DNA of 64,000 nt, taken from positions 1 through 64,000 of the forward strand of contig JALSKZ010000018.1 in NCBI GenBank assembly GCA_026988575.1, given 5' to 3'. The notes under the pieces are model-generated. The model did not search any database. It saw only the letters and a program-made list of their open reading frames with translations, and had not been told where the DNA came from. Numbering within the stretch: the first letter of the stretch is position 1; each line of letters begins with the position of its first letter. The DNA comes from Thermodesulfobacteriales bacterium (GTDB lineage Bacteria > Desulfobacterota > Thermodesulfobacteria > Thermodesulfobacteriales > Thermodesulfatatoraceae). The translations under genes and the position numbers were made by a program. This document shows positions 1,744 through 13,857 of the stretch, in pieces.

Positions 1744-4553
1744 GCCTTTTTCACCACCTCGGCACACCGACGGCATAGATCAGGTAACGCCGGATCAGTA
1801 CCCACAGAGTCGTGCCATTGCCAGCACCGGGCACATTTTTGGCCCCGGGCCTTCTGTACCAAAATGGTAAGCCCTGGCCATTGCTCGGACACAAAAACGA
1901 CCTCACCACTTTGCACCTCAGGCAACTCGTCTACGTATTGAAGGTCTGAAACAATGGCCAAATAAAGAAGCGTGTCTTGCTCCTCTTTTATAAACGTGGC
2001 CAATTGATCATCTTTAGAACTAATCAGGATAGAAGCCTCCAACGTGTTGCCGATAAGTTTTTGGTCTTTACGGGCCCGTTCTAAGGCCTTGGTTATCTCC
2101 CCCCGTATTTGCAACAACTTATCCCACTTTTTTACCCAGGCCTCCTCCACCTCCAGCAACATTGGCTCGGGGAAACAGGCCAAATGGACGCTTTCAAGGC
2201 CTTGTTTCTCTGGAAGATAGGCCCAGATCTCCTCTGCGGTAAAGGAAAGGATCGGCGCCATAAGCAAAGTAATGCTTCGCAGGGCTTGATAAAGGACCGT
2301 CTGTACTGCCCGACGTTGGGAAGAATCAGGTACCTCACAATAGAGGGTATCCCTCCTGACGTCAATATAAAGGGCCGAAAGGTCTCCCGCACAAAATTGA
2401 TGCAAGGCCTGAAATACCAAGTGAAAGTTAAAATCTTCGTAGGCCTTTTTACACCTTTGAATCACCTTAGAGAGTCGGTACAGCAGAAAGCGTTCTAATT
2501 CAGGGAGTTCTTCCACGGCCAAGGCATCTCTTTGGGGATCAAAATCAAAAATGTTGCCGATCAAGAAACGACAGGTATTTCTAATTTTTCGGTAGGCCTC
2601 CACCATACGCGAGAGAATCTCGTTGGACAAGCGGATATCCCCGCGGTAATCCTCCGCAGAGACCCACAGGCGTAAAATCTCGGCCCCGTAGCGCTTGATA
2701 ATCTTTTCGGGAGGGATCACGTTACCTAAAGACTTGGACATCTTACGCCCTTGGCCATCAACTACAAAACCGTGGGTAAGAACGGCCTGATAAGGGGCCT
2801 GATCTCTAGTACCCACCGCACAAAGCAACGAGCTCTGAAACCACCCCCGGTGCTGATCAGAACCCTCCAGATATAGCTCTGCCGGAAACTTCAACTCCTT
2901 ACGACGTTCCAACACCGCGGCAAAAGAGACACCGGAATCAAACCATACGTCTAGGATATCTTCTTCTTTGCAGAAATTTTCTCCTCCACAGCGGGGACAC
3001 TTGGTCCCTGGGGGTATTAGTTCGGCGGTAGACTTCTCAAACCATATATCGGCACCGTATTGTTGAAACAACGCCAAGGTCTTGGTGTAGTACTTTTCCT
3101 CCCGCAGGATCTCTCCACAGTCGGCACAGAAGAAGACCGTAACCGGCACACCCCAGGCACGTTGGCGAGAAAGGCACCAGTCTGGCCGGTTCTCCACCAT
3201 ACTACGGATACGATTATAGCCCCACTTGGGGATCCAACGGACCCGGTCTATCCACCGCAGGGCACGCTCACGCAGGGCCTTGTGTTCCATAGAGATAAAC
3301 CATTGCTCTGTAGCCCTAAAAATCACGGGTTTTTTACAACGCCAACAATGGGGATAACTATGTTCTATCTCTGCCTGGTGTAAAAGGAATCCTCTGTCCT
3401 GCAAAAGGGCGATAATTTCCTCGTTGGCTTGGAATATATTTTTGCCGGCAAACAAGGGGACCTCCGCGGTAAAACACCCGTAATCGTCCACCGGTGAATA
3501 AACCTCTAGACCATATTTTAGCCCGCTTTCGTAATCTTCTTCACCATGACCCGGAGCAATATGCACACACCCGGTACCAGACTCGAGGCTTACGTAGTCG
3601 GCAAGGATAAAGAGTGATTCTCGGTCTATAAAGGGATGTTTTACGTGCTTTCCCTCAAGGTCCGAGGGCTTAAAGCGAAAGAGGATGGGGGGAACCTTTT
3701 CCAGACCCAACTCTGCCGTAAGGGCAGAGAGACGCCCTTCGGCAAGCAAAATTACCTCTCCGTTAAGCTCCACCGCCACATAATCGAGTTCAGGGTTTAA
3801 GGCCACCGCCAAGTTAGCCGGCAAAGTCCAAGGAGTAGTAGTCCAAATCACTACAAAGGCCGGTTTGTCCTTGGGCCACAAAGGTAGACTTTGGCGGACA
3901 TCTTCGCTTAAGGGAAACTTTACGTAAATAGAGGGAGACTTATGCACTTCGTATTCTACTTCGGCCTCAGCCAGGGCTGTTACACAGTGCGGACACCAAT
4001 ATACCGGTTTTTTCCGTTTATAAACGTATCCCTCACTCAAAAACCGGACGAATTCGCGAGCAATAGTGGCCTCATAGTCATAATTCATCGTCAAATAGGG
4101 GTTTTCCCAATCACCCAGGACCCCCAGACGCTTGAATTCTTCACGCTGAATATCGATAAAACGATGGGCATACTCTCTACAATGCTTGCGCACTTTGATC
4201 TTGGGCAACTCCCCACGCTTTACCTTGAGTTCCTTTTCCACGTTGAGCTCAATGGGCAGGCCGTGGCAATCCCACCCGGGCACATAGGGGCAGGCATATC
4301 CAAGCATACGCCGCGATTTAAGGATGAAGTCTTTTAAGATCTTGTTCAGGGCCGTACCCATATGGATGTGTCCGTTGGCATACGGAGGCCCATCGTGAAG
4401 GACAAAAAGGGCCTTTTGGGCGGCCGTTTCCTGTAATCGTTGATACAAACGTATTTCTTCCCAGAAGCGTAATATCTCCGGCTCTCTTTGGGCCAAATTG
4501 GCCTTCATGGGAAATTTAGTCTGCGGAAGATTCAACGTGTCTTTCCAATCCAT
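1713..4553 (-). CDS. ileS: Isoleucyl-tRNA synthetase
   Basis: Class I aminoacyl-tRNA synthetase of 946 residues, cytoplasmic, charging tRNA-Ile. The HIGH-type signature is PPYANGHIHMG near residue 60 and the KMSKS loop is GRKMSKSLGN near residue 600. The CP1 editing domain lies between them (TTTPWTLPANLAV and GTGCVHIAPGHGEEDY are editing-domain blocks). The C-terminus carries the bacterial zinc finger CARCW...CRRC. Start ATG 4553 follows AAGGAC. It lies 65 bases downstream of the hybrid kinase gene, and its end overlaps lspA. Confidence 0.97.
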   Translation of the reverse strand: MDWKDTLNLPQTKFPMKANLAQREPEILRFWEEIRLYQRLQETAAQKALFVLHDGPPYANGHIHMGTALNKILKDFILKSRRMLGYACPYVPGWDCHGLPIELNVEKELKVKRGELPKIKVRKHCREYAHRFIDIQREEFKRLGVLGDWENPYLTMNYDYEATIAREFVRFLSEGYVYKRKKPVYWCPHCVTALAEAEVEYEVHKSPSIYVKFPLSEDVRQSLPLWPKDKPAFVVIWTTTPWTLPANLAVALNPELDYVAVELNGEVILLAEGRLSALTAELGLEKVPPILFRFKPSDLEGKHVKHPFIDRESLFILADYVSLESGTGCVHIAPGHGEEDYESGLKYGLEVYSPVDDYGCFTAEVPLFAGKNIFQANEEIIALLQDRGFLLHQAEIEHSYPHCWRCKKPVIFRATEQWFISMEHKALRERALRWIDRVRWIPKWGYNRIRSMVENRPDWCLSRQRAWGVPVTVFFCADCGEILREEKYYTKTLALFQQYGADIWFEKSTAELIPPGTKCPRCGGENFCKEEDILDVWFDSGVSFAAVLERRKELKFPAELYLEGSDQHRGWFQSSLLCAVGTRDQAPYQAVLTHGFVVDGQGRKMSKSLGNVIPPEKIIKRYGAEILRLWVSAEDYRGDIRLSNEILSRMVEAYRKIRNTCRFLIGNIFDFDPQRDALAVEELPELERFLLYRLSKVIQRCKKAYEDFNFHLVFQALHQFCAGDLSALYIDVRRDTLYCEVPDSSQRRAVQTVLYQALRSITLLMAPILSFTAEEIWAYLPEKQGLESVHLACFPEPMLLEVEEAWVKKWDKLLQIRGEITKALERARKDQKLIGNTLEASILISSKDDQLATFIKEEQDTLLYLAIVSDLQYVDELPEVQSGEVVFVSEQWPGLTILVQKARGQKCARCWQWHDSVGTDPALPDLCRRCAEVVKKAWAHVLAENS

Positions 4554-9162: not shown

Positions 9163-10371
9163 TTAACTAGCCGGTTTAAGCCTTGTTAAGGCCTCTTTTA
9201 TTCGGGCAACGCCCTTTAAAATTTCTTCATCGGCATTGGCGAAAGACAACCTAAGACAATTATCATCCCCAAAGGCAATTCCTGGCACAGTAGCTACCCG
9301 AGCCTCTTCTAAGAGATAGTCGCAAAGGGAAAGAGAATCTTTTATCTCTGTGCCTGAGGGGGTAAGACAACCGTAGTAAGCCGCAAAATTCACAAAGGTG
9401 TAAAATGTCCCCTGAGGAGCAGTCAACCGGAGACCAGGAATTTGGGACAATTCCTGATAGAGGAGTTGCGCCCGGCGTTTGAAGTGTTTACGCATTTCTG
9501 CTACACAATCTTGCGGCCCACAAAGGGCGGCCAAAGCGGCCTTCTGGGCAATAGAATTGGCGTTAGAGGTACTCTGACCCTGAATTCTCGAAACCGCAGC
9601 TATAATTTCTTTAGGCCCCACAGCCCATCCAATACGCCAACCAGTCATAGCGTAGGTCTTAGATACTCCGTTTACTATAATTACCTGGTTTCGAAGATCA
9701 GGGGCCACCGATAAGATATTCTCCGGCCCCTTCCCGTCAAAACGTAAGTGGTCATATATATCATCGCTTATGATTACGAGATCTCTCTGACGCGCCAGTT
9801 GGGCTAGACCCTGCAAAAATTCGGTGGAATAAACAAGACCGGTGGGATTTGACGGGCTATTTAATATCAGACCTTGCGTACGAGGGGATAGGGCGTCTTC
9901 CAAAAGTTTTAAGTCTGGTTCAAAATTTCTCTCTTGGGCACCTCCCACAATCACTGGTTTAGCCCCGGCCAGCTCTACAATAGGAGGATAAGATACCCAA
10001 TAGGGGGCAAGGAGGATTACCTCGTCACCTGGCTCAAAAAGGGCTTGCGCCAGGTTAAAAAGGGCCTGTTTGGCCCCACAAGTAATCACTACCTCGTCTA
10101 TAGAATACTCAAGTCCATAGTCCTCTTTGATTTTGGTACAAACGGCCTCTCTAAGTTCGGGTATACCAGGAACCGGTGTATAGCGTGTAAAGCCTTGCTC
10201 AATGGCCTTAATGGCCGCCTCTTTTATGTGCCCAGGCGTATCGAAATCTGGTTCACCAGCAGATAAATTGACTATATCTACCCCTTTAGAACGTAAGGCC
10301 TTGGCCTTGGCGTTAATGGCCAAGGTGGCCGAAGGTTTCAGATCCTTAACACGGTGAGCAAGTTTACTCAT
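9163..10371 (-). CDS. Pyridoxal-phosphate aminotransferase, aspartate aminotransferase type Ib
   Basis: 402-residue fold-type I aminotransferase that exchanges amino groups between aspartate or a similar amino acid and 2-oxoglutarate. The Schiff-base lysine lies in VSKTYAMTGWRIGW. Other visible blocks are NLSAGEPDFDTP, LNSPSNPTG, ISDDIYDHL and the substrate-carboxylate Arg near LRLSFAN. The start overlaps the truA stop by 4 bases, so the two are translationally coupled. It is the last gene of the rplM-rpsI-argC-truA operon. Substrate range cannot be read from sequence alone (Asp, Tyr/Phe or prephenate forms exist). Confidence 0.9.
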   Translation of the reverse strand: MSKLAHRVKDLKPSATLAINAKAKALRSKGVDIVNLSAGEPDFDTPGHIKEAAIKAIEQGFTRYTPVPGIPELREAVCTKIKEDYGLEYSIDEVVITCGAKQALFNLAQALFEPGDEVILLAPYWVSYPPIVELAGAKPVIVGGAQERNFEPDLKLLEDALSPRTQGLILNSPSNPTGLVYSTEFLQGLAQLARQRDLVIISDDIYDHLRFDGKGPENILSVAPDLRNQVIIVNGVSKTYAMTGWRIGWAVGPKEIIAAVSRIQGQSTSNANSIAQKAALAALCGPQDCVAEMRKHFKRRAQLLYQELSQIPGLRLTAPQGTFYTFVNFAAYYGCLTPSGTEIKDSLSLCDYLLEEARVATVPGIAFGDDNCLRLSFANADEEILKGVARIKEALTRLKPAS

Positions 10372-13110: not shown

Positions 13111-13317
13111 GGACCAGAGGTGGCTTCTTGGGCCTTACCCCTGCCTACGTAAAAAACCGGTTACATTTTACCACCGAACTAAAAGGTTAAAACAAAAAAA
13201 ATAAAAAATTTTCGCCCACAAAAAGTAATGGTTACCGGCAAATTCGAGAAATTTCTTTCTTGAGGGGACAGGATACGCTATTAAGGTAACAAACGCACCC
13301 CCAAATAGGAGGCTAAC

Positions 13318-13857
13318 ATAAAAAGAAAGATTAGCAAATTGCTGGCCCTGACCCTTTGCCTGGTGACCTTATCTGCCACATCTTTGCGGGCCAGCGATTC
13401 CTTGGAGTTTGCCGGCGATATCGGACGTATCCTGCTCCCCATCAGCGCCTGGACCACGGCCTTTCTTAAAAAAGACTACTCAGGTATGGTCCAGTTTAGC
13501 CAATCTATGGTGGCCGCTGTAGGGATTACCTATGCCCTTAAATATAGCCTGCATACAAGGCGTCCTAACGGAAAGACACACGCCTTCCCTTCGGGACACA
13601 CCTCTGTGGCCTTTTGCGCAGCCTCTTTTGGGCAAAAGCGCTACGGTCTCTCTTACGGCCTTCCTGCTTTTATAACCGCGGCTTTTGTGGGATACACGCG
13701 GCTTGCCTCGAAAAATCATTACGGGAAAGACGTCTTAGCAGGGGCCGCTATAGGGATTATTACCGGTTATCTATTTACCGATAGATACCCCCAGGTGGAT
13801 ATCCAAGCGCTTGTGGGCCCTGATCTTTACGGCCTAATCATTGGCAAAGCTTTCTAA
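13318..13857 (+). CDS. PAP2-family lipid phosphatase, probable AUA start codon
   Basis: Exported or membrane acid phosphatase of the PAP2 superfamily; such enzymes dephosphorylate phosphatidic acid, undecaprenyl-PP or lipid A phosphates. The three signature blocks are present: KYSLHTRRP, FPSGHTS and the late block TRLASKNHYGKDVLAG, containing the catalytic His. The first ordinary start codon in frame is a TTG at 13339, which would cut off the Lys/Arg-rich n-region of the signal peptide. A perfect AGGAGG at 13307-13312 sits 5 bases before an in-frame ATA at 13318, and an in-frame TAG at 13306 excludes longer forms. Starting at ATA gives 179 residues with KRKISK then LLALTLCLVTL. It is transcribed divergently from rplM. 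Confidence 0.8.
   Translation: MKRKISKLLALTLCLVTLSATSLRASDSLEFAGDIGRILLPISAWTTAFLKKDYSGMVQFSQSMVAAVGITYALKYSLHTRRPNGKTHAFPSGHTSVAFCAASFGQKRYGLSYGLPAFITAAFVGYTRLASKNHYGKDVLAGAAIGIITGYLFTDRYPQVDIQALVGPDLYGLIIGKAF

Follow-up and report, generated by a model that had tools for sequence, protein, structure and literature searches.

Putative AUA initiation codon of a PAP2-superfamily phosphatase gene in a Thermodesulfobacteriales bacterium

Translation of a PAP2-superfamily phosphatase gene from a thermophilic sulfur bacterium of the order Thermodesulfobacteriales probably starts at the AUA codon at position 13318 of the window, the whole 64,000-nucleotide stretch of DNA that was analysed; we put the probability of this reading at about 0.8. 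Initiation at AUA is well supported by a Shine-Dalgarno sequence at the modal spacing of the genome, by how its signal sequence compares in length and charge with those of orthologues, by the position of the rival TTG codon away from any ribosome site, and by a second gene of the same genome that appears to begin with AUA. The arrangement of the site, its rarity by chance, the N-termini of orthologues, and the second AUA gene can be observed directly in the sequences.

The reading frame of the phosphatase begins IKRKISKLLALTLCLV and comprises 179 codons from ATA or 172 from TTG 13339, which is the first ATG, GTG, or TTG codon downstream of the stop codon TAG 13306 (Table 1). An earlier note on this DNA described a perfect AGGAGG followed five bases later by an in-frame ATA, a TAG just upstream, and a next ordinary start 26 bases from the ribosome site, and all of these elements are present in the sequence. 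The in-frame codons that the AGGAGG can serve are ATA, at a distance of 5 nt, and AAA, at 8 nt, which is unsuitable for initiation. AUU 13330 was rejected as a start, being 17 nt from the end of the Shine-Dalgarno sequence. No Shine-Dalgarno match was found 4–11 nt upstream of TTG 13339, and a weak AGCAA/UUGCU hairpin is predicted to form over this codon.

Table 1 Features of the PAP2 phosphatase gene and of other genes with unusual starts
Feature	Position	Strand	Remarks
In-frame stop TAG	13306..13308	+	overlaps AGGAGG; rules out a start farther upstream in frame
Shine-Dalgarno sequence, perfect AGGAGG	13307..13312	+	sequence; genome-wide AGGAGG behaviour
Spacer CTAAC between AGGAGG and ATA	13313-13317	+	sequence
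ATA, putative initiation codon	13318..13320	+	5 nt past AGGAGG
PAP2-superfamily phosphatase gene	13318..13857	+	179 codons from ATA plus stop; PF01569
Signal-sequence region (M)KRKISK-LLALTLCLVTLSATSLRA	13318..13392	+	putative cleavage point
TTG, rival ordinary start	13339..13341	+	26 nt past Shine-Dalgarno end
PAP2 motif 1, K-x6-RP = KYSLHTRRP	13540..13566	+	
PAP2 motif 2, PSGH	13588..13599	+	
PAP2 motif 3, TR-x5-H-x3-D = TRLASKNHYGKD	13696..13731	+	
Stop TAA of the PAP2 gene	13855-13857	+	
Multihaem cytochrome, AGGAGG-6-ATA start	contig C87 (L191)	-	full signal sequence
alr, alanine racemase	contig C67 (L208); relatives L209-L227	-	TIGR00492, 325.6 bits
folK	contig C79 from 7859; L281-L300		TIGR01498, 132 bits

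The genome was read whole (2,014,789 bases, 2.01 Mb, in 88 contigs), and 1,880 frames were collected from it as a simple gene set. An in-frame canonical start codon (ATG, GTG, or TTG) is located 3–13 nt after AGGAGG at 431 of the 491 start-proximal sites of the whole genome, and the commonest spacing is 5 nt (126 cases), followed by 6 nt (108 cases). Among the 12,254 internal in-frame ATA codons of the same genome, 28 are preceded by AGGAGG at a distance of 4–9 nt, and two at exactly 5 nt. The modal spacing and its rarity before internal ATA codons therefore make it very likely that the Shine-Dalgarno site at 13307–13312 is real. Weaker Shine-Dalgarno sequences combined with ATA showed no clear excess across all genes (11/396, versus 31/1,585 control codons), so each AUA case needs its own, gene-by-gene evidence. 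The corresponding whole-genome count for CTG was 8 versus 5.

The protein matches Pfam family PF01569 with an E-value of 2.6e-10 and a score of 40.6 bits, against a gathering score of 27.2. All three PAP2 motifs are intact, with threonine replacing the serine of SR-x5-H-x3-D in motif 3. LpxE-type lipid A 1-phosphatases share the three motifs with this protein, and the LpxE model NF007159 is its best match in NCBIfam, but the score of 39.2 bits is far below the equivalog cut-off of 177, and the protein is therefore assigned to the PAP2 superfamily only. The charge of the n-region of the signal sequence is +4 from ATA and 0 from TTG, which bears out the claim that a start at ATA gives a complete n-region, KRKISK. 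The body of the protein that follows the signal sequence contains several moderately hydrophobic stretches. Because of these and the signal sequence, it is at least as likely that the phosphatase is membrane-bound with its active site facing outward as that it is secreted. The description of the product as a secreted PAP2 phosphatase thus holds for the family, given the PF01569 match and the motifs, whereas "secreted" is too strong.

The nearest orthologue, from the genome G003, is 49% identical and starts with ATG ATG AAA AGT, placing an ATG at the position that matches ATA 13318. By our own count, the orthologue has 26 residues up to the sequence ASD, compared with 27 from ATA and 20 from TTG in the phosphatase studied here. 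Other orthologues from the phylum have ATG, GTG, or TTG starts near the corresponding place, and the 10 orthologue signal sequences that were scored have n-region charges of +1 to +3; all orthologue starts were picked by eye. The earlier note proposed aligning orthologues to see whether ATA or ATG occupies this position: ATG does so in G003, and ATA was absent from every PAP2 orthologue found, which points to a lineage-specific ATG-to-ATA change. The distribution of the gene is patchy, since among nine other genomes of the family that were searched a close orthologue was present only in G003. One PAP2 orthologue (L039) has a frame of 437 amino acids, whose long C-terminal extension resembles a barrel on visual inspection.

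The second AUA gene encodes a multihaem cytochrome. Its start region reads TAAAGGAGG-GTCTTT-ATA-TAT-CGT (AGGAGG-GTCTTT-ATA), and the product from ATA carries a full signal sequence, IYRFWYSVWIFLWVFLGLWGLQALA. The cytochrome relative in the genome G004 has AGGAGG-AGCTTT-ATG, and most relatives have ATG at the position of the ATA or no more than several codons away from it.

The gene alr provides a non-canonical start that is shared across the order. Its aligned first codon is ATT in sixteen, ATC in three, and CTT in one of the 20 genomes of the order, so that AUU or AUC is found in 19 of 20; the codon usually follows a Shine-Dalgarno-like run at a distance of 5–8 nt. For 15 of the 20 genomes, the stretch from the upstream stop to the aligned first codon contains no canonical start. 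The next canonical start of these 15 genes is 10–92 codons downstream, and six of them have it at codon 46 or beyond. The string SDAYGHG was found in two of the genomes, and in both the lysine before it, presumed to be the PLP lysine, is codon 35. The 29 alr genes from the phylum outside the order have no fixed AUY start, and most of those that were read offer an ATG, GTG, or TTG close to the start. A text search of the open-licence literature found no prior description of the order-wide AUU/AUC start of alr. This start is a stronger, more testable, and more interesting case than the AUA of the PAP2 gene, and it lends itself naturally to comparative testing of why a poor start codon is kept in a housekeeping gene.

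Further unusual starts were observed in the genome and its relatives. In a GspK-like gene (L228-L231; the name rests on a score of 26.5 bits, under the cut-off), the prepilin motif is preceded by CTG in this genome (G000) and in G003, G004, and G005, and the CTG apparently overlaps the preceding stop as CTGA in these four genomes. In 19 of 20 genomes, folK lacks a canonical start in the stretch from the upstream stop to its aligned first codon, NTA, which overlaps the stop of an upstream aminotransferase-like gene as N-TAA or N-TAG. Five of these genomes have a canonical codon 5–7 codons downstream, before the NLG motif, and an ordinary folK start is thus possible in them. Translation of folK may occur by reinitiation at NUA; a -1 frameshift into folK is less probable, given that the last codons are variable and non-slippery. 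ACG and AUC were dropped as candidate folK starts, since the conserved upstream bases are the end of the gene that overlaps in another frame. On the plus strand of contig C27, a CTG soon after AAGGAG (end of the Shine-Dalgarno sequence at 3095) is the only plausible start of an MFS transporter gene, for which relatives were found. AUA starts had been called very rare, which is true in general, but several starts other than ATG, GTG, and TTG are present in this genome and its relatives. We tentatively consider it possible that start selection in the order is unusually permissive, with AUU/AUC fixed in alr, CUG overlapping a stop in gspK, no codon but an NUA at the stop of the aminotransferase-like gene for folK, and AUA starts for two or more exported proteins of one lineage.

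A coding-potential scan for more non-canonical starts was abandoned because it was too weak for short extensions; what it recovered was mainly frames with a selenocysteine TGA, along with the prfB frameshift. Frames resuming right after TGA are located on contigs C36 (19199, plus strand) and C84 (3418 and 15156, minus strand), with sequences such as HLGECHY... and HAPSVAGLATTLGSG..., and tRNA-Sec is present in the genome; the interrupted frames likely encode selenoproteins. The prfB-type frameshift site, AAGGAGGTGTCTTTGA, is at 9405 on the minus strand of contig C65.

Based on the arrangement of the site, a mechanism of initiation can be proposed for the PAP2 gene. The AGGAGG would position the 30S ribosomal subunit on AUA 13318, where the initiator fMet-tRNA (CAU) may pair with the codon through two Watson-Crick pairs and a mismatch at the third position. 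No initiator tRNA with a UAU anticodon was found, although by eye the assembly lacks a clear initiator tRNA of any kind. Reading of AUA by fMet-tRNA would give the protein the N-terminus Met-Lys-Arg-Lys and a complete signal sequence. Initiation at AUA is probably several-fold weaker than at AUG, and a low output would thus be set by the codon. We infer the use of AUA, methionine as the first residue, and the low yield from the sequences described above. The codon most likely originated in a single ATG-to-ATA change in the lineage, which would be tolerable thanks to the strong ribosome site. Because gene finders recognize no start codons but ATG, GTG, and TTG, genes of this kind are annotated short or missed, and their signal sequences are lost.

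Four other explanations of the site were weighed. The earlier note linked AUA starts to IF3-sensitive regulation, but it is unlikely that the AUA was selected as an IF3-sensitive brake on translation similar to that of infC. IF3 represses non-canonical starts in Escherichia coli and Streptomyces (PMC5472188), and the AUA sites of Staphylococcus aureus likewise combine a strong ribosome site with a poor codon (PMC13009471), but a selected brake does not agree with the lack of ATA conservation in PAP2 orthologues. Furthermore, infC starts with GTG in this genome, so there is no autoregulation of IF3 through a non-canonical start codon here; in the genomes of the order that were read, infC starts with GTG, TTG, or ATG, and G010 has its GTG one codon on.

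Initiation at TTG 13339, with the upstream AGGAGG-ATA as a coincidence or the relic of a lost ATG start, is improbable. The distance from AGGAGG and the absence of a Shine-Dalgarno match argue against it, and a hairpin that would draw the AGGAGG near the TTG was considered, but no such fold is predicted. The product would keep a hydrophobic N-terminus, although its signal sequence would have no positive charge, unlike those of the orthologues scored. TTG is nevertheless an ordinary start in the genome, accounting for 149 of 1,810 crude calls, and about 31% of these have no clear (4-base) Shine-Dalgarno match, which leaves the TTG a small share of the probability. Equally improbable is a start-loss allele in a decaying, hardly expressed gene that yields no useful product from AUA. 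The intact frame, motifs, and signal sequence and the perfect Shine-Dalgarno sequence speak against decay, as does the output of AUA in S. aureus, which reaches 10–30% of that of AUG (PMC13009471), even though the gene is patchy in the family and the ATA unconserved. Least probable of all is a sequencing or consensus error that replaced a real ATG at 13318: a single G-to-A change in this one assembly of 88 contigs would be enough, and orthologues have ATG, but the independent ATA start of the cytochrome, a conserved gene in the same assembly, would require another start-codon error, the PAP2 gene shows no other defect in its frame or motifs, and non-canonical alr starts occur in other, single-contig genomes.

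Initiation of the PAP2 phosphatase at AUA resembles that of infC, ccpN, and citZ of S. aureus, which have AUA starts with strong ribosome sites (PMC13009471). In the S. aureus genes and in the PAP2 gene, AUA comes right after a strong, well-spaced Shine-Dalgarno sequence, and no alternative start is in place. In reporters of ccpN and citZ, AUA gave approximately 10% of the output of AUG, with ccpN reaching as much as 30% in rich medium (PMC13009471). The S. aureus starts were shown by ribosome profiling and, in the case of ccpN and citZ, by reporters as well; ccpN is conserved as far as Bacillus subtilis, whereas the ATA of the PAP2 gene is restricted to one lineage. The non-canonical starts of E. 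coli infC and pcnB (AUU) and of Streptomyces sigR (GUC) lower initiation, as we propose for the PAP2 gene (PMC5472188). Control was demonstrated for these three genes (PMC5472188), while the PAP2 start is proposed from the sequence; E. coli infC starts with AUU, whereas in this order infC has ordinary start codons. Compared with AUN genes of the infC and ccpN type, the PAP2 gene likewise has no in-frame ATG, GTG, or TTG at the site, a nearby upstream stop, and AGGAGG at 5 nt; conservation of the codon among orthologues is found in alr but not in the PAP2 gene. The putative AUA start of the PAP2 phosphatase adds a new case to the AUA starts already known from infC and ccpN of S. aureus.
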